Assembly (NCBI RefSeq): GCF_024022995.1
Contig: NZ_CP099582.1
Span: forward strand, 434,001-498,000
Length of the DNA: 64,000 nt
Direction of reading: 5' to 3'
Source: Thermococcus aggregans
GTDB lineage: Archaea > Methanobacteriota_B > Thermococci > Thermococcales > Thermococcaceae
In this document: positions 4,990 through 39,042 of the stretch, one piece after another
Layout of the letters: each line of letters begins with the position of its first letter
How positions within the stretch are numbered: position 1 is the stretch's first letter
Position numbers and translations under genes: made by a program
The notes under the pieces: model-generated
Database searches by the model: none
Told to the model about the DNA's origin: nothing
Seen by the model: the letters and a program-made list of their open reading frames with translations, nothing else

Positions 4990-5469
4990 ATGAAAGCCTA
5001 CGTTACGATGCTCGGAAGGTCGACATGGGCCATGATAAATGCCTATTATGCAGTTGTTATGAAGAACTACCGGCCTGACAAAATTTTCATCTTTCTTGAG
5101 GACATCTATACTAAAAAGCTCCCAAAAGCAGTCGAAGCACTAAAAATAATCTCCAACGAATACGGCTTTTCTCCTGAGATAGAGTGGATAATAATTGAGG
5201 AAGACAACTTTCTCGAAGCTGATGAGAAGATAGGAGAACTCCTCAAAAAGCTGAAGAAAGAAGGCTACGAGGTATCGGTGGACATAACCTCTGGAAGAAA
5301 AGCCTTGGTAGCGGGAGCCGCCATCCATGCACTTCCATTGGAAGTCGAGCACCTATTCTACCTTTCACTTAGGGACCTCGAATATGCAAACCGGCCGTAC
5401 ATGATGATTCCCCTGCACATCCAGAGGCTAAAGGACTTTATGGAGGGCAGAAGATGGAAAAAATTATAG
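4990..5469 (+). CDS. CARF-like Rossmann-fold protein
   Basis: The 159-residue product has alternating strands and helices. Strand 1 is KAYVTMLGRST (2-12), a second is DKIFIFLED (30-38), a third is EIEWIIIEED (63-72), and the key loop is DITSGRKALVAGAA at 98-111. A Ser/Thr-Gly-Arg-Lys loop after a strand, followed by a helix, is the ligand-binding signature of CARF domains, which sense cyclic oligoadenylates in type III CRISPR responses. No nuclease domain is fused. Instead the next gene, overlapping by 16 bases, encodes a PIN-fold protein. No cas gene or CRISPR array is visible in this window. The fold call is from motif reading only. Confidence 0.6.
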   Translation: MKAYVTMLGRSTWAMINAYYAVVMKNYRPDKIFIFLEDIYTKKLPKAVEALKIISNEYGFSPEIEWIIIEEDNFLEADEKIGELLKKLKKEGYEVSVDITSGRKALVAGAAIHALPLEVEHLFYLSLRDLEYANRPYMMIPLHIQRLKDFMEGRRWKKL

Positions 5470-6452
5470 AAAAGCCGGAGCTCCAGATACTGATCAACTT
5501 AATCCAGATGAGAGACAAAATCCGCGTTAGTGCTCCCCTTTACAACATGCCACTTCTCGAAGCGTATCCTTACAAAGATGGATACAGAGTAAGGGCACTA
5601 GCCAAGGAAGAGGACTTTCACAAAGTGCTCCATGGGAAAGAGAGATACCTCTACGATCTTCCCACATACAGAGACTATTACGAGTGTTTCCTTTCCAGTG
5701 GAATAATAAACTACGCCAACATAGACGAGTTCCAAAAGAAGCTTGAAGCATATAAAAGCCTCACAAGAAGGATAATCTTTGCCCCAGATACCAACCTTTT
5801 ATACCACGCGTTTCTGTCTAAGCTCAGGGGAGTGACGGGAATCCAGATAGCGATAGTTGATTTGGTTAAGAAGGAAATCGAGAATTCAATGAACTTCAAA
5901 TACAAGCATACGCACTTAAGAGAGCTGAGAAATATCCTCCACAATTCACACCTACTCCAAGAATTCAGCAACAGGAGAATGAAAAAATCAAGGAAAGCTG
6001 CCTACATAGCCCTAAGAGAATACGAAAAGCTAAAAGACAAAATAATAGAGGTGGAAAGCATCAAAGAAAAAGCAAACACCAACGACGAGCTGATAATAAA
6101 AACTCTGAAGGAATTCGACAAAAACACGCCAGCACTTGTTGTTCTCTTAACGGCAGACATAGCGATGACTGACATAGCGGAAATCGAGGGCGTTGAGTAC
6201 TTTCTCTTTGAGTATCCCCACAAAGAGCTGAGCGAACATTATGCTAGTGGCTATCAGTTGAGAACCCTGATATTCAACCTAGCGGCTGTTTTTGGTGTCA
6301 TTGAGATGAACAACGTGCTTATATTTGGCGAATTTAGAGGAAAAACTGAACTAAATGAACTGAAGTTAGTCTTCAAGAAGGACCTACATCAAGAGTTTTG
6401 TTTCCACTGGAAGTTATGCAAAAAGCTAATGGAACTGGAAATTGAGAAGTAG
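5454..6452 (+). CDS. PIN-domain nuclease-like protein, partner of the CARF-like gene
   Basis: 332 residues. The N-terminal 105 residues are of unknown fold. From about 107 a PIN-like core follows: strand and first acid RIIFAPDTNLLYHAF (D112), a second acid after a helix (DLVKKEIENS, E141), a third in TNDELIIKTLKEF (D211), and LLTADIAMTDIAE with D235 and D240 after a hydrophobic strand. These match the four-acid Mg2+ site of PIN RNases. The 16-base overlap with the CARF-like gene implies co-translation, so a cyclic-nucleotide-controlled ribonuclease is a reasonable hypothesis. A mini-ORB lies inside its 3' end (6395-6412). Confidence 0.6.
   Translation: MEKIIEKPELQILINLIQMRDKIRVSAPLYNMPLLEAYPYKDGYRVRALAKEEDFHKVLHGKERYLYDLPTYRDYYECFLSSGIINYANIDEFQKKLEAYKSLTRRIIFAPDTNLLYHAFLSKLRGVTGIQIAIVDLVKKEIENSMNFKYKHTHLRELRNILHNSHLLQEFSNRRMKKSRKAAYIALREYEKLKDKIIEVESIKEKANTNDELIIKTLKEFDKNTPALVVLLTADIAMTDIAEIEGVEYFLFEYPHKELSEHYASGYQLRTLIFNLAAVFGVIEMNNVLIFGEFRGKTELNELKLVFKKDLHQEFCFHWKLCKKLMELEIEK
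6395..6412 (+). repeat. Mini-ORB-like element inside the PIN gene
   Basis: GTTTTGTTTCCACTGGAA differs at one position from the mini-ORBs at 7651 and 7719. Similarity to the first ORB (7309 onward) continues downstream for another dozen bases (GCTRTGCARAA-like). It is coding sequence as well, so conservation could be partly fortuitous. Confidence 0.5.
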
Positions 6453-7060
6453 TCAGAAGTAGCCAACGTCTTCACTTGACTTTGATTTTTCAAGTATTTC
6501 CCTAAGGAATTCTTCGGCATCTTTTGGATCCATTCCAACCTTGACGACCAAAAGTTCAGAATATCCTCTTTTTTGGCGCCCTTCTCAAGTCGTTCCAATA
6601 CCATCATCACAATTCTTTCAAAAACTGCCATGGCGAACTCTTCTTCGAGTCCCAGAGCCCTTATAACCTCGTTCAAACCAATTAACAGGCTCGTGAGAGC
6701 ATCGTTAAATTCGCCTTTCCCAAGAGTTTTCCTGTCCAAGTCGACTCTTAAAGTTATTTCCTCGTTCATCCCAGTTATGCAGAACTTTATCAGGTTCAAC
6801 TTGTCGTTAAGCATCAAAAGAGAGTGGTAAACTTTCAAGCGCTCTGGCACTTCTAAAGCAACGGTATCAACGCCAAGAGGGACTATCAGATGAACAAATT
6901 CCTTATCTATTACTACATTAAGAACAAATGGTATTTTTGGATATTCAGCCAAATAAACCCCATCTGACTTTTTTGTCACTTTCCACGGGAGGTCCACTAT
7001 ATCCCTCGCATTGTCATACCCCTCTTCCAACCATTTGAGTACTTCCACAGGAACCACCAT
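6453..7060 (-). CDS. YbjN/CesT-like protein, frameshifted near its 3' end
   Basis: From ATG at 7060 the frame gives about 165 good residues with a pattern typical of YbjN/CesT-like chaperone folds: YHSLLMLNDKLNLIKFCI, then ITLRVDLD, then FNDALTSLLIGLNEVI. After ERLEKGAKKEDI (about 6562-6570) the frame turns into poor sequence. The next frame over continues well as LLVVKVGMDPKDAEEFLREI and ends SSEDVGYF with TGA at 6453-6455, directly abutting the convergent PIN gene. One missing base near 6565 explains this. The uncorrected frame would run to 6389 with an unnatural Ser/Gln-rich tail. It is either a real lesion or a sequencing error. Function unknown. Confidence 0.6.
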
Positions 7061-7299
7061 ATGAAGTTGAACTTTGAAGTATTTAAGTTCAATCTTCCAC
7101 CGGAAGCGATAGTCGAAATAGCCGCAAACACCTCATGAAATCTTTACAATAGACAACCCCTGTAAGGTGTAATGGCCATTTCCTATGGACGAAAAATGAA
7201 CAAAGATATGCATTGAAAAGAGTACAACAGTGCTCCCAAACATGCATCCGATTTAACAAAAGTATTTGCCAACCAACCATTTGTTAAACAGAGACCTAG

Positions 7300-7327
7300 C
7301 CCCCCAGAGTTTTATTTCCACTGGAGG
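7300..7327 (+). repeat. ORB1, long origin recognition box
   Basis: CCCCCC at 7300-7305, AGAG, then TTTTATTTCCACTGGAGG. It is the mirror of ORB2 over 25 of 26 positions and faces it across the AT-rich stretch. The C/G run is the feature that separates full ORBs from mini-ORBs. Confidence 0.85.
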
Positions 7328-7362
7328 CTGTGCAGAACACCCGACACTTTCTATTAAATTGG

Positions 7363-7560
7363 TGAAAACACTCCCATTGTTTTTACACTTTGAGATATAT
7401 ATATTTATCTATGAACATTGTTCAGAAAATAACATGACCAATGATAAGAAATAACAACTAACTGGCATTTATCATTTAAGTATTGTGAACAACTTAACAT
7501 CGACAAACTCAAATGACCCTTTTAAATGCTTTTTACATTTCTATTCTCCACAAAATCCGT
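7363..7560. other. AT-rich stretch between ORBs, probable duplex-unwinding element
   Basis: It contains GAGATATATATATTTATC near 7392 and long A/T runs with little coding potential. The position between inverted ORBs fits the site of initial strand opening. Exact boundaries are a guess. Confidence 0.55.
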
Positions 7561-7577
7561 CCGATTTTCCAAACTGG

Positions 7578-7605
7578 GTTCCAGTGGAAATGAAACTCTG
7601 GGGGG
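7578..7605 (-). repeat. ORB2, long origin recognition box (inverted)
   Basis: TTCCAGTGGAAATGAAAC followed by CTCTGGGGGG ending at 7605. It is the reverse complement of ORB1 with one difference in the T-rich arm. Confidence 0.85.
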
Positions 7606-7650
7606 CCTGTCAGACGAGTTTATGAACGCTTAGATAACCATAGAAAAGGG

Positions 7651-7668
7651 GTTTTATTTCCACTGGAA
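7651..7668 (+). repeat. Mini-ORB
   Basis: GTTTTATTTCCACTGGAA, identical to the copy at 7719-7736, in ORB1 orientation and without the C run. Confidence 0.8.
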
Positions 7669-7718
7669 CTTTTGGATGCTAATGTATTAAAATGTGCATA
7701 AATATGCAAAATTGTGGT

Positions 7719-7736
7719 GTTTTATTTCCACTGGAA
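7719..7736 (+). repeat. Mini-ORB
   Basis: GTTTTATTTCCACTGGAA. It starts 68 bases after the previous mini-ORB. Both are followed by CT. Confidence 0.8.
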
Positions 7737-7800
7737 CTCATGCTGCCTTGAAATGTTGTTCAGAAGATGCACAACTACTCGTTGGGGGTTTACAAATAGG

Positions 7801-7818
7801 GCTTTATTTCCACTGGAA
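7801..7818 (+). repeat. Mini-ORB
   Basis: GCTTTATTTCCACTGGAA, one change from the other two. It lies 82 bases after the preceding one and about 95 bases before the radA promoter. Confidence 0.8.
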
Positions 7819-7910
7819 ATCTCAAGCCTTAATGCTCCATTTTTGCATTTTGGTTTTACTCATCCTTGATTTTGTAATTTTCAGCGGTTGAACGCTTTTT
7901 TCGGGCATGG

Positions 7911-7924
7911 GAAAAATATATAAG
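7911..7924 (+). promoter_or_regulatory. radA promoter box A
   Basis: GAAAAATATATAAG about 50 bases before the radA ATG is a strong archaeal TATA box with a purine-rich BRE-like 5' side. Confidence 0.65.
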
Positions 7925-7971
7925 CACTTTGGATGCACTACTATTTAGAATCATGCTTATGGGTGATAACT

Positions 7972-10500
7972 ATGGCGAGAAAAAAGAAAGTCGAAGATGA
8001 AATTAAAGAGCTCGAAGAGTTTGAAGAGCTCGACGATCTTGAAGAACTCTCAATTGAAGAAGATTCAATCGAAGAGAGTAGTGGATCAACCAAAAAGAAG
8101 GAAATAAAAACGTTGGAGGATCTCCCTGGAGTTGGGCCCGCTACTGCTGAAAAGCTTAGAGAAGCAGGTTACGACACCTTGGAGGCGATAGCAGTAGCTT
8201 CTCCGTTAGAGCTGAAAGAACTTGCTGGAATAAGTGAAGGTGCTGCTCTAAAAATTATCCAAGCCGCGAGAGAAGCAGCTAATATTGGAACCTTCATGCG
8301 TGCTGATGAATATTTACAAAAGAGAGCCGTTGTAGGCAAAATTACCACTGGAAGCAAGGCCTTGGATAAGCTTCTCGGCGGTGGAATCGAGACTCAAGCT
8401 ATCTCCGAGGTCTTCGGTGAATTTGGTAGTGGAAAGTGTTTTGCAAAAGACACGAGAGTATACTATGAGAACGATACTTTGGTTCACTTTGAGACCATCG
8501 AGGAAATGTACGAGAAGTATAAAGCGTTGAATGGGGAAATACCATTTGACACAGGCTTTGCAGTTCCACTGGAAACGGTCAGCGTCTACACATTCGACTC
8601 CGTAACTGGAGAAGTAAAGCGCACCAAGGCTTCCTACCTTTATCGCGAGAAGGTTAGGAAGATACTTCAGATCAACCTCTCCAAGGGAAGAACGCTCAAA
8701 ATAACCGCAGTTCACCCAGTGCTTGTTTTTAGAGATGGTTTAAAGTGGGTTCGTGCAGGGGAGCTTAGAGAAGGTGATATCCTCGTTGGCATCCGTAAGG
8801 TTCCGGCTAACACAGCTTCAGTGGCCAACGAGAAAGCGTATTTCCTTGGTCTCTTCGTTGCAGAAGGAACTTCCAATCCGCTCTCTATAACAACGGCATC
8901 AGAGAAACTCAAGGAATTTATCGTTAGCTTTATCAAAAAGCACGACGGATACGAGCCGAAAGTCGAAGTTAGACGCGGCCTCTACAGGATACTTTTCCGC
9001 AAGAGAACGGCTGAATGGCTTGGAGAGCTATCTAATTCGAACGCCCAAAACAAAAAGATTCCAGAGGAAATACTCAACGGAAACGAAGAAGTTATAATAA
9101 GCTTTCTCGCGGGCTACCTCGACGGTGACGGGCACGTCTCGAAGTCCAACGTGGAGTTCGTTACAAAGAGCAGAAGCTTGGCTGAAGGGCTTGTGTTCCT
9201 CCTGAAGCGCATTGGCATTTCACCAACTGTGTCCGAGAAGGTAGTTGGTGAGGAAACCTACTATAGAATTTTCATAACGGGGGAGGATAGAGCAGCTTTT
9301 GAGAGGGTTCTCCCTGCTTCCCTCCTTAAGAACTCGAAAATACCTTCCGGAGGCGTTGGAAGGTATCCACCGGCAGTTGCTAAGTATCTCTCAAAGCTCT
9401 ACACGAGGTTTAGGCTCCCAAAGAAGGACGGTGAAACTGCTTATCACATATTGACCCGTAACAAGGATGTCTGGTTCACTGAGGAAACCCTTGAACGGAT
9501 TGCCGAATACTTCAAGGACGCGCTTGAGAGACTTGAGCTCGCTAGAAAAGCTATTGAAACTGGAGAAACTCCAAAACTGCCATTTTCTTGGACTGTCCTC
9601 AGAAAGTACGGGTTCAATGATAGGCAGATTTCCAACTACCGCACGAGGGGACTTCCAAAGCGTGAGCCGAGGAGAAGTGAAGTTATCTTTGCTCTTATGA
9701 AGGAGATTGAAGAGCTTGAGAGGACGGCTAAAGATGCCCTTAAATTCATTGAGCTCATTAAAAAGCTTGAGTTTTACGAAGTGAAGTCCGTCGAGCTGGT
9801 TGACTATAACGACTGGGTTTACGATCTCGTGGTTCCCGAGACCCACAACTTCATTGCTCCCAACGGTCTTGTCCTGCACAATACTCAACTCGCTCATACA
9901 CTTGCCGTTATGGTCCAAAAGTCGCCCGAAGAAGGAGGGCTCAGAGGTTCAGTAATATGGATTGACACAGAAAACACTTTCAGGCCTGAAAGAATAAAGC
10001 AAATAGCCGAGAACAGGGGCATGGATCCAGATGAAGTACTAAAGAACATTTACGTTGCCAGGGCCTTCAACAGCAATCACCAAATGCTCCTTGTAGAAAA
10101 AGCCGAGGAAATAATTAAACAAAAGGCTGCGAGCGATAGACCAGTTAAACTTCTTGTAGTAGATTCCCTTACAGGACACTTTAGGTCAGAATATGTGGGA
10201 AGAGGAACCTTAGCGGAGAGACAGCAAAAGCTTGCCAAGCATCTGGCAGATCTACATCGTTTGGCAAACCTTTACGATATAGCAGTGTTCGTTACTAACC
10301 AAGTTCAAGCAAGGCCTGACGCTTTCTTCGGTGATCCAACAAGACCAATAGGTGGTCACATCCTGGCTCACTCAGCCACTGTTAGAGTCTACCTAAGAAA
10401 AGGAAAAGCTGGAAAGAGAGTTGCAAGGCTTATAGACTCTCCCCACCTGCCTGAAGGAGAAGCAGCCTTTAGAATCACAGAGAAGGGAGTCGAGGATTAG
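7972..10500 (+). CDS. radA: RadA recombinase with in-frame intein
   Basis: Archaeal RecA/Rad51 homologue that forms filaments on single-stranded DNA and catalyses ATP-dependent strand exchange. The start ATG at 7972 follows GGTGAT. The acidic N-terminus leads into a helix-hairpin-helix domain ([17 protein letters not shown], about residues 47-63). The Walker A loop GEFGSGK is split at residue 155 by a 482-residue intein (156-637); the C-extein resumes with TQLAHTL, restoring GKT. Walker B ([14 protein letters not shown]) and the ssDNA loops ([16 protein letters not shown]) follow. The spliced protein would be about 360 residues, the normal RadA size. It sits beside oriC, and nucS follows after one inserted gene. 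Confidence 0.97.
8437..9882 (+). other. RadA intein with LAGLIDADG homing endonuclease
   Basis: The 482-residue insertion begins with Cys ([10 protein letters not shown]) right after the Walker A Lys and ends [13 protein letters not shown] before a +1 Thr. These are canonical class 1 splice-junction residues. Block B is near [10 protein letters not shown]. Two DOD endonuclease motifs are present, [11 protein letters not shown] and [13 protein letters not shown]. Base composition is visibly GC-richer than the flanking exteins (for example about 55% in one 60-base line against 45% in the C-extein), which fits horizontal spread. Endonuclease acids are present, so it may still be active. Confidence 0.95.
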
Positions 10501-34859: not shown

Positions 34860-35759
34860 ATGCTGAAAAGGACACTTCCACTCCTTTTTCTTGTTTTGTT
34901 AGTTTCAGGTTTTGTTAATGCACAAGAAAGTATTAGTGCATCCGCCACGGTCGATTTAAATGTTACCTTAGTGAATGCTGGTCCGTTTTACAAGTTCGTT
35001 TTAATAAACCCTAATTATGAATACACCTTGCTTAGAGAAGATAGTGAGATTAAAACTGTGAACAACCCTGGATTTTGGATTGCCCCGTATGAGACGCTCC
35101 AGGTAAATGTGAAGATTAATGAAACGTTATCAACAGGCACTATTAGTGGAGTAGAAGGTTCAAATCCGTTTTACAACCCTGTTTATCCTCAGCTGATTCT
35201 CTATCCGCAGAAGTATTATGCGGTTGACACGTTCTTTATTTCAGATGGCTACGTAAAAGTGGTTAAATACAGCGGAACAGTTAAAGTTACGATAAATAAC
35301 CCATCTCCTGAAACTTCAAAATACATCGCTATAGGGCTACCAATACTCTTTGAAGGGGCTGAAGTAAGTGGTTTTACTCCAGAATACACCATGAAATATA
35401 GCGAATACGTTGGTACAATTCTTTCTCAATATGCTCAATACGTTAAGGAGTATACACCAAAGTACTTGGACAGAAGTTCTGAAAGTAGTACAAACACTCT
35501 CTCAGAGCTTTCTTCTAGAATAATTGTTTCCTCTGGGACTGATTTACTCTCAAGGAGCAAAGAAGGGCCGGAATTATTGGGTAGGGTATATAAAAAGCCC
35601 GAATTAAAATTTGATTATCCTGTTTGGATAGTGTTTTTAGGTGATAACCTTGAAATTACATATGATGTTAAGTGGGAAAACCTCATGAGGGTGAGCGAAT
35701 TTGGAGGAGAAAAAGAAAAAACGTTTAGGTTTATCATGGATAGAAGAGATATTAAGTGA
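34860..35759 (+). CDS. Secreted or membrane-associated protein of the pilus-like operon
   Basis: 299 residues. The signal peptide [22 protein letters not shown] is followed by a beta-rich mature part ([13 protein letters not shown] and so on) without a C-terminal anchor. No family recognised. GGTGA precedes the ATG. It starts five bases after the DUF515 gene ends and overlaps the start of the secretion ATPase by 59 bases. It is probably an extracytoplasmic component of the same pilus-like machine. Confidence 0.6.
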
Positions 35760-38700
35760 GAGAGCAGATCCCTTAGAGGATATAATAAAAGAAGGAAAAA
35801 GAGGGGAAGAAAGACCCACTACAATTGAAGAGGAGCCGTCCTCAATCCTACCAGAGATCAAGACTCCTTCAAGGCCTTTATCAGCTAAGAGTCCACCGGA
35901 AACTAGTCTAGAGGACATATTAAAGTCCGCGAAAAGTCCAGCAAAAGTTCCCACACCTATGTATCAAGGTGAAGAGGTAAAGGTTCTTGATGTATACGGA
36001 AATGTGAGGATCCTTAAAGTCAAAGGAGAGCCGATTCCAATTTATGAGATCCGTCTTCCACAATTAAGCGAGGAAGAAGAAAAACTCGTAAAAATAGTTA
36101 GGGATAGAGCAATTGCAGAAATACAGATAGATCCTGAAAGCATTCCTGATTTGGAAGAAAGGAGGAGGATCTTTGGAAGAGCCGTAAAAAACATAATGCG
36201 TGAACTTGCTCCTGCTCTTTCTGAGGCGAGAATGGAAATTCTCGTAAATTTGGTTGTTCAGAATATGATAGGTTATGGAAGACTTGACCCCCTTGTTAGG
36301 GACGACAATCTGGAAGAAGTTATGGTAATAGGGACGAGAAAACCGGTATATGTGTGGCATAGAAAGTTCTACATGTGCAAGACGAATATTGTTTTTGATG
36401 ACGAAAGGGAAATACTGAACATAATTGAACGTATAGCGAGGCAGGTTGGAAGAAGAATTGACCAGCAAACTCCGCTCTTAGATGCTCGTTTGCCGGATGG
36501 TAGTAGAGTAAATGCAACTATTAGGCCAATTAGCTTAGATGGGCCCACGTTAACCATAAGAAAGTTCAAAAAAGACCCTCTCACGATAATTGATCTCCTG
36601 AAGTATGGCACTTTCAACTTGGAGGTAGCTTCTTTGCTCTGGGTTTTTGTTGACGGTCTCGGAGTTAAGCCTGCAAACGTCCTTGTTGCTGGAGGAACAG
36701 GTTCAGGTAAAACAACTACCCTTAATGCATTGGCAATGTTTATTCCTCCTAGCGAGCGTGTCATAAGTATTGAGGATACAGCAGAGCTTCAGCTGCCAAT
36801 AGAGCATTGGGTAAGGTTGGAAACAAGGCCTCCAAACATAGAAGGAAGGGGAGAAATAACCATGGATGACCTCGTGAAAAACACTCTAAGAATGCGTCCG
36901 GATAGAATTATCGTTGGTGAGGTTAGAGGCCCTGAGGCAAGGACGATGTTTACGGCAATGAATACGGGACATAATGGGGCTCTCTATGATTTTTCTGTTA
37001 TTCAGCTCTCTAACGGAAAATTTGTCCTTATAGGAGATTTGGTAGAGGAACTTTTCAAAAAATACTCGAATAGAGTTGAAACATATAAAGATCTTGAGTA
37101 TATAGTGCTCGATGAAAAAGACCGTTTTGAGGTTGTCAGTGTAGGTCCAGACCTTAAGGCAGGTAAGCACGTAGTCTCGAGAGTATGGAGAAGAAAAGTT
37201 AGAGATGGAGAAAAGCTGATGCGTATAAGAACAAGGACGGGTAATGAGGTTATACTAACCAAGACTCATCCATTTTTTGTCTTTTCCCGGGGGGATGTGG
37301 TCAGGAAAGAGGCGGAAAAACTTGAAGTGGGAGATAGAGTTGCAGTGATGATGCGTCCACCTACTCCACCTCAGCGTAAGGCTATCGTGGATCCCAGCGT
37401 TTATGCAAAAATAAGTGACTACTATCTCGTCCCCAATGGTAAAGGCATGATAAAAGTTCCAAATGATGGCCTTCCGCCAGAAGAAGCCCAATATCTGGCA
37501 TCTGTAAATTCACATCCTGTAAAGCTGGTCAAGGAAATTGATGGTAGTCTTGCATACATTGCCGGAGTGATTCTCGGCGATGGGTATATTTCTTCGAATG
37601 GATACCACATTTCAGCTACATTTGACGACGAGGAGTATATGGACGCCTTTGTGGATGCTGTATCGAATTTTATATTGAATTATGCCCCGCAGATAAGGAA
37701 CAATGGAAAAAGCACTGTTGTAACAATTGGTTCAAAAATTTTCGCCGAAATGCTCTCGAGGATATTTGGAATACCTAAGGGCAGAAAGTCTGAAATATGG
37801 GATGTTCCGGATGTGGTCCTCTCAAACGATGACCTCATGAGATACTTTATAGCGGGATTATACGACGCTGACGGCTACGTTGATGAGAGTAGCCTAGCAA
37901 TAATCCTGACTACAAAAAGCGAGAATGCAGCAAGAAAGATATGGTATGCTCTCCAGAGGCTGGGGATAATAAGCACAGTATCACGTGTAAAGAACAGGGG
38001 CTTCAAAGATGGAGAGATATTTAGGGTAATTATAAGCGGGATTGAAGATATGAATAAATTTGCCAGATTCATACCTCTGCACCACTCAAGAAAAAGGGCT
38101 AAACTTGAGGAAATATTAAGGACTAAGAAATCATACCGCGGAAGAAGGACGTATCGGGTTCCAATCTCAGGTGAGATGATAGCTCCTATCCGTCGGAGAT
38201 TGGGATTAACGATTGTCGAGCTTTCAAAGCTGGCTTCACATTATGCCGGGGAGAAAGTATCCGAGAGCCTTATCAGGCATGTGGAAAAAGGAAGAGTCGG
38301 AGAAATAAGACGTTCTGCACTTAGAGGAATTGCCCTTGCCTTTCAGCAGGTTGCAGAGGATGTTGGGGACAAAGAAGCTTGGACAATGGCAAAAAGACTC
38401 CAGCTGATAGCCGAAGGGGATGTCTACTGGGATGAAGTTATAAGTGTTGAAGAAGTTGATCCAGAAGAATTGGGGATTAAGTACCTCTATGATCTCACCG
38501 TTGAGGATGACCACAATTATGTAGCCAATGGAATATTGGTGTCCAATTGTATGGGTACAATACACTCCAATTCTGCGAGAGAAACAATCGTAAGGCTTGA
38601 GAGTCCGCCAATGAACGTTCCAAGAATTATGATTCCTGCTCTTGATGTTATCATAATGCAGGTAAGGTTTAACAACAGAAAGAAAGGAACCATAAGAAGG

Positions 38701-39042
38701 ATCACCGAGATAGCAGAAGTCTCGGGAATAGAAGGGGAAAGTGTTCAGCTGAACACCATTTACAAGTACAATCCAGCAAAGGACGAACTTTACCACACGG
38801 GAGTGCCAAGTAGGGTTATGAACCAGCTTGCCGAGCATACTGGTTTAACAATGGACGAACTCCTAGAGGAGAGAGTGAAAAGAGAAGTTGTTCTCCAGTG
38901 GATGGTAGAGAAGGGAATAAGAAGCATAGACGAGGTTGGCCACTACATTAGAGAATTTTACATTGATCCCGAAGAGCTGCTGAGGAAGATAGAAAGAGAT
39001 GCCTCGGCTGAGCTAACTGAAAAAGCTAGAACAGTAATTTAG
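35701..39042 (+). CDS. klbA: KlbA/TadA-type secretion ATPase with in-frame intein
   Basis: 1113 residues as encoded, about 590 after splicing. An extended charged N-terminus (1-120) precedes the GspE/TadA ATPase core: Walker [11 protein letters not shown] at 331, Asp box [13 protein letters not shown], and Walker [16 protein letters not shown] 523-residue intein interrupts [15 protein letters not shown] (His box). The hexameric ATPase powers pilus or pseudopilus assembly in the cytoplasm. The TTG start at 35701 overlaps the upstream gene by 59 bases and has GGGTGA upstream; a shorter form from ATG 35959 cannot be excluded. Two TadC-like genes follow. Confidence 0.93.
36979..38547 (+). other. 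KlbA class 2 intein with LAGLIDADG endonuclease
   Basis: 523 residues (427-949 of the precursor). It starts with Ala ([14 protein letters not shown]) rather than Cys or Ser and ends [14 protein letters not shown] before a +1 Cys. An Ala1 intein with Cys+1 is the defining trait of KlbA-type class 2 inteins, which skip the usual N-S shift. Block B is in [12 protein letters not shown]. Endonuclease motifs are [13 protein letters not shown] and [15 protein letters not shown] helix-turn-helix-like segment ([20 protein letters not shown]) occurs near its end. Confidence 0.92.

Follow-up and report, generated by a model that had tools for sequence, protein, structure and literature searches.

The window analysed here, that is, the whole stretch of 64 kb to which all coordinates refer unless they are given for a genome, carries upstream of radA a gene-free region that had already been read, from its letters alone, as most likely the chromosomal oriC. 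Is this region the origin of replication, and what becomes of such an origin when the gene for its initiator lies hundreds of kilobases away? In Pyrococcus, Orc1/Cdc6 binds the ORB elements, melts an AT-rich stretch and loads MCM. The evidence set out below makes it very likely, as a joint statement, that positions 7299-7818 are oriC and the sole ORB-type origin found on the chromosome, that its initiator acts in trans, that origin and initiator gene were parted by one ancestral event, and that the ORBs were redistributed.

The anatomy of the region (Table 1) follows closely what the sequence-only reading had described. The gene-free span upstream of radA runs from 7061 to 7971, and the start of radA at 7972 (ATGGCGAGAAAA...) is that of T. 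barophilus radA in a primer printed in PMC11005403. The inverted elements of 26-28 bases placed at 7300-7327 and 7578-7605 were found within one base of these positions and measure 28 bp each; their inverted arms (7299-7325 and 7580-7606, 27 nt each) show a complementarity of 96%. The AT-rich stretch of about 250 bases between them proved to be 252 bp long, with 32% GC as compared with ~43% genome-wide, and the three shorter copies given at 7651, 7719 and 7801 lie at 7652, 7720 and 7802, all on the minus strand. In addition, ORB-like copies occur inside the flanking genes (5687, 6396 and 8558), and the copy at 6396 and the left ORB are 914-917 bp apart in those members of the genus for which the distance was taken. 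Neither these copies, nor two non-ORB blocks within the AT-rich stretch (7366-7377 and 7396-7424), nor the 395 kb that separate oriC from cdc6 and polD had figured in the sequence-only reading.

Table 1. Features of the oriC region, in coordinates of the 64-kb window
Feature	Position	Strand	Remarks
PIN332, PIN-domain gene	5454-6452	+	new neighbour from the rearrangement; overlaps the end of p223
Outlying mini-ORB in PIN-domain gene	5687-5703	-	
p223, function not assigned	6389-7060	-	no Pfam match; ancestrally placed between oriC and cdc6
Outlying mini-ORB	6396-6412	-	in the overlap of convergent p223 and PIN332
Left long ORB	7299-7326	-	CTCCAGTGGAAATAAAACTCTGGGGGGC; G-string outward
AT-rich inter-ORB interval, presumed duplex-unwinding element (DUE)	7327-7578	.	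252 bp, 32% GC; DUE function inferred from Pyrococcus
DUE block A	7366-7377	+	AAACACTCCCAT; family-wide
DUE block B	7396-7424	+	TATATATATTTATCTATGAACATTGTTCA; holds the palindrome TGAACA-T-TGTTCA (7412-7424)
Right long ORB	7579-7606	+	TTCCAGTGGAAATGAAACTCTGGGGGGC; G-string outward
Mini-ORB 1	7652-7668	-	aligned in all genus members compared, one with a changed base
Mini-ORB 2	7720-7736	-	
Scar of lost ion-channel gene (last codons)	7761-7799	+	genus alignment; intact 333-aa ORF in G076 (L071), homologue in L081
Mini-ORB 3	7802-7818	-	in most relatives beyond the ion-channel gene, adjoining radA
Likely radA promoter	7910-7925	+	BRE/TATA GGAAAAATATATAAGC; near-invariant in the genus; promoter assignment inferred
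radA recombinase gene with intein	7972-10500	+	842 aa from start 7972
Weak ORB-like copy in radA	8558-8574	-	exact core, two tail mismatches

The cluster of ORBs is far above chance expectation and single in the genome. In particular, matches to the core TTCCASTGGAA, one mismatch being allowed, number 20 in the 64-kb window as against 1.6 +/- 1.3 in shuffles. The exact core is present 12 times in the genome of 1,889,107 bp, 7 copies falling within the 2.9 kb between 439.69 and 442.57 kb and 5 elsewhere, and the long ORB pattern, when as many as three mismatches are tolerated, is found at three places in the genome, namely both long ORBs and the mini-ORB at window position 6396. The full-genome scan that had been proposed as a check has been run, and it revealed neither a richer cluster nor an even scatter of copies; likewise, no second origin of the long-ORB type was found beyond the oriC site in the long-ORB scan of the genome. 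A second origin was also considered at a divergent Orc1/Cdc6 paralogue (228 bits; 1339146-1340438) and rejected, as this gene at 1,339 kb sits tightly within a sugar-uptake operon and there is no long ORB match there. The operon, made up of mannose-family PTS, PTS enzyme I and amino-sugar genes, is unusual company for an archaeal initiator; similar second Orc1/Cdc6 paralogues are present also in G079, G087, G001, G093 and on contig 2 of G086.

The same arrangement recurs throughout the family. Of 94 Thermococcaceae genomes, 92 have the 17-base ORB pattern when a single mismatch is allowed, and an inverted ORB pair with a gap of 251-273 bp between the cores was found at all 31 Thermococcaceae loci examined, from six genera, by a script that sought outward pairs 235-290 bp apart, so that orientation was part of the search. 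The likeness in layout to the Pyrococcus oriC that had first been pointed out holds well, the same layout being present at the G004 locus and in all other genera. We take G004 to be P. abyssi, G086 T. barophilus, G077 T. litoralis and G078 T. sibiricus. The ORB pair of G086 lies at 1,672,885-1,673,171, which, if this genome is indeed that of T. barophilus, is 2 kb from the marker-frequency peak of that species at 1,671,000 (PMC11005403). The original attribution of the region to the chromosomal oriC is supported by both the genome scan and the family-wide layout.

The orc1/cdc6 gene itself (491.7 bits) is located at 836 kb, 395 kb from oriC, preceded by TIP49 and followed by DP1 and DP2, and the distance between oriC and cdc6 ranges from 349 to 620 kb in five single-contig members of the genus. 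In general, oriC has been placed close to both radA and cdc6, as stated in a 2024 paper (PMC11005403). The gene order radA-oriC-p223-cdc6-DP1 is seen in genera g2, g5 and g6; the g4 genome G021 shows radA, the ion-channel gene, oriC and cdc6, with p223 not found; and in the Pyrococcus-like g3 genomes oriC is linked to cdc6, radA being elsewhere. The first of these is, judged from the sequences compared, the ancestral order. In the genus of the window genome, oriC keeps radA and p223 as neighbours, TIP49 stands directly before cdc6 in 11 of 11 members and p223 abuts PIN332 in 10 of 10, and the genus is a single clade with 100/100 support (cdc6+DP1 tree; 11 genus genomes). Since the radA-p223 side has been kept, both new junctions are shared and all carriers belong to one clade, a single ancestral break between p223 and cdc6 would explain the pattern. 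An assembly error as the source of the separation is practically out of the question: no point was found in its support, and it is refuted by the recurrence of the p223-PIN332 and TIP49-cdc6 junctions across 10-11 different genomes, of which five consist of a single contig. No account of the genus-wide split of origin and initiator, with its redistribution of ORBs, was found in the accessible literature, although Cossu et al. 2015 may mention the split.

At the rearrangement junction, the convergent genes p223 and PIN332 share 64 bp (6389-6452), an overlap that holds the outlying mini-ORB, and the frame of the last 50 residues of p223 varies between species. When genome contigs were searched for p223, one relative only was retrieved, AUK126, which is probably the same genome as G085.

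A different outcome of the rearrangement would be a relocation of the active origin to 836 kb, together with cdc6, which would make the ORB cluster beside radA a relic. One could point in this sense to a single core ahead of TIP49 and to a degenerate palindrome, similar to a mini-ORB, upstream of cdc6, but there is no long ORB at cdc6 and no mini-ORB within cdc6 or DP1 in 11 genomes. The same comparison can be made with word skews, on samples that cover 52% (window genome), 44% and 19% of three genus genomes; GTTG ranks among the 4-mers with the strongest skew in a published set of three Thermococcales genomes (PMC2958812). In the window genome, with 52% sampled, cumulative minima lie at 440 kb for GTTG and at 430 kb for GGTG, and those of TGGT and GTTC at ~1,040 and ~1,010 kb. 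The plain GC curve is noisy and points to no clear origin; it reaches its minimum at 230 kb, with a low value at 441 kb. All five words stand well above their minimum at the cdc6 locus. In G077, with the ORB pair at 975 kb and cdc6 at 1,595 kb, four of five words (GTTG, TGGT, GGTG and G) reach their minimum between 880 and 970 kb, within 100 kb of the pair. In G078, with the ORB pair at 1,784 kb and cdc6 at 1,435 kb, GTTG and TGGT reach their minima ~60-75 kb from the ORB pair; skew is low near the pair and high at the cdc6 locus, where four of five words have values of 0.55-0.64 of their range. A two-segment fit over all 4-mers yielded R2 values of at most 0.19 and no consensus position. Sampled and noisy though they are, the word skews of the three genus genomes favour the ORB site over the cdc6 locus, and a relocated active origin, largely refuted by these observations, is highly improbable.

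A remnant origin beside cdc6 was considered as well and rejected: a conserved palindrome upstream of the gene, which resembles CTTCC(A/G)GTGGAAACC, is all that is left there. This genus-conserved palindrome (L021:9990-10080) lies below a likely TATA box and is perhaps an operator; it could be an autoregulatory Orc1/Cdc6 site.

If the origin stayed beside radA, what happened to the ORBs in the genes that surround it? According to Matsunaga et al. 2007, as restated in PMC2643942, dp1 holds a cluster of ORBs and mini-ORBs in the four Thermococcales investigated at that time. In our comparison, ORBs are found in DP1 of 21 of the 22 genomes in which it is linked to oriC and in none of the 11 genomes of the window genus, where it is unlinked. 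PIN332 shows the reciprocal distribution: all 10 genomes that have it next to oriC carry ORBs in the gene, as against 0 of 13 whose orthologue is elsewhere. Nominally these contrasts are strong, but a single rearrangement in a single clade underlies them, so that the genomes are not independent cases. Exact cores are present in p162 in 7 of 10 genomes with oriC linkage versus 0 of 13 without it. G001 departs from the rule, its cdc6 and DP1 being still linked and its DP1 yet devoid of ORBs. No ORBs were found in DUF2284, one to two genes farther out, or in TIP49, beside cdc6.

Phylogenetic non-independence and the occurrence of only one rearrangement leave some room for codon drift in a single clade, rather than selection by the origin, as the cause of both the ORBs in PIN332 and p162 and their absence from DP1. 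We nevertheless judge this explanation improbable, because codon-shuffled DP1 yields no more than 0.00-0.05 matches per gene, because two unrelated genes have changed in opposite ways, each in keeping with its linkage, and because DUF2284 and TIP49 lack ORBs. We lean instead towards selection by the origin: the initiator-binding sites of Thermococcales would form a field, kilobases wide, that follows the origin, such that neighbours left behind lost their ORBs and new ones gained them. If this is true, in-gene ORBs are working parts of the origin under selection, and linkage of initiator and origin is dispensable.

Changes have taken place on the radA side, too. Most genus members have an ion-channel gene that parts oriC from radA, with mini-ORB 2 on one side of it and the radA-side mini-ORB on the other. 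In the window genome and in AUK126 this gene has been deleted down to its last codons, and the deletion has brought the third mini-ORB into the cluster. A TnpB/OrfB-like insertion (L067:5595-7469) splits the ion-channel gene next to oriC in G074, and in G077 the gene is truncated. The radA intein is present in the window genome and in G076, G077, G078, G080, G084 and G085, while G074, G075 and G079 are inteinless. A second probable intein-bearing gene lies at 35701-39042 of the window, an ORF of 1113 aa for a secretion/pilus-type ATPase with a large insertion.

Conservation is not limited to the ORBs. When 31 inter-ORB stretches were aligned and identity between genera was computed over 12 columns, with 2000 column shuffles for comparison, block A reached 0.85 and block B up to 0.87, the median being 0.40 and the shuffle maximum 0.78. 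The core of block B is the sole exact copy in the genome, the next-best match having two mismatches, and both blocks are retained in altered form in the Pyrococcus-like genomes. As both lie in the half beside the p223-side ORB, the unwinding element is asymmetric. They may serve as a melting site or as a site for another protein. We know of no prior description of these blocks.

The anatomy of the site, its conservation, its distance from cdc6 and the reciprocal spread of the ORBs can be read from the sequences themselves; for binding, melting and firing, and for the order of events, we infer the following course. Orc1/Cdc6, made from a gene 395 kb away, would bind both long ORBs, by analogy with Pyrococcus, with their G-strings outward, and the mini-ORBs, which extend into the neighbour genes, would assist this binding. 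The protein would then open the AT-rich interval of 252 bp, with melting probably located at the conserved blocks close to the left ORB or next to them; MCM loading would follow, for bidirectional replication. In the ancestor of the genus, one p223/cdc6 rearrangement would have cut the origin from cdc6-DP1-DP2; after the split, the ORB cluster of DP1 would have decayed and ORBs would have arisen in the genes newly beside the origin.

How often such an origin fires is another matter. T. kodakarensis tolerates the deletion of cdc6 and of the origin with no loss of growth (PMC5663688), which means that the site in the window genome may fire rarely. Recombination-dependent initiation dominates in that species (PMC5663688, PMC13136892), and the level of RadA, set by intein splicing, tips the balance between the modes of initiation (PMC13136892); for this reason, an intein-bearing radA beside the origin is of interest. 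Furthermore, T. barophilus, P. furiosus and T. kodakarensis all have their strongest oriC peak in stationary phase (PMC11005403), and the origin may matter most in that phase. These observations, together with the adjoining intein-bearing radA, would fit a largely silent origin, RadA-dependent recombination starting replication at many places and the ORBs being kept for stationary-phase ploidy control or for regulation of radA. On the other hand, ORBs, spacing and DUE blocks are conserved family-wide, unlike what is expected of a useless site, and the skew minima near oriC suggest long-term use as a start site. On balance, a largely silent origin is possible but doubtful, and we retain the course outlined above, in which Orc1/Cdc6 would open the origin from a distant gene.

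The genus has a bearing on the proposal that Cdc6 recruits polymerase D to the origin via DP1, which has been argued partly from gene adjacency. With an origin hundreds of kilobases from cdc6 and polD, it represents a natural experiment, which shows that the origin can be kept without this linkage and which offers a clean test of whether in-gene ORBs belong to the origin. In practical terms, the position of cdc6 is unsuitable for locating origins in species of this genus.

Origins distant from the initiator gene are also known in bacteria. As here, bacterial origins far from dnaA are served by an initiator acting in trans from another locus, whereas both the initiator and its binding motif are different. 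The dp1 ORB cluster shares with the present case the location of ORB elements in coding sequence near the origin; in the four Thermococcales studied these elements are in DP1, whereas in the window genus they are in PIN332 and p162. The closest counterpart is the single Orc1/Cdc6 origin of P. abyssi, P. furiosus, T. kodakarensis and T. barophilus, with which the locus shares the outward inverted long ORBs, the AT-rich interval of ~250 bp, mini-ORBs both beside the pair and in neighbour genes, and an intergenic position near radA, as in most genera. Their oriC is next to cdc6-DP1-DP2 and ORBs are present in DP1, whereas here cdc6 is 395 kb off, DP1 is without ORBs and a PIN-domain gene has them. 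Of the two features lacking, adjacency to orc1/cdc6 is usual and not required, and the DP1 cluster is accessory; as adjacency to cdc6 is a positional feature and not a working part, the locus is still classed as a Thermococcales oriC. In other words, this origin is of the type standard for Thermococcales, except for its distance from the initiator gene and its shifted binding sites.
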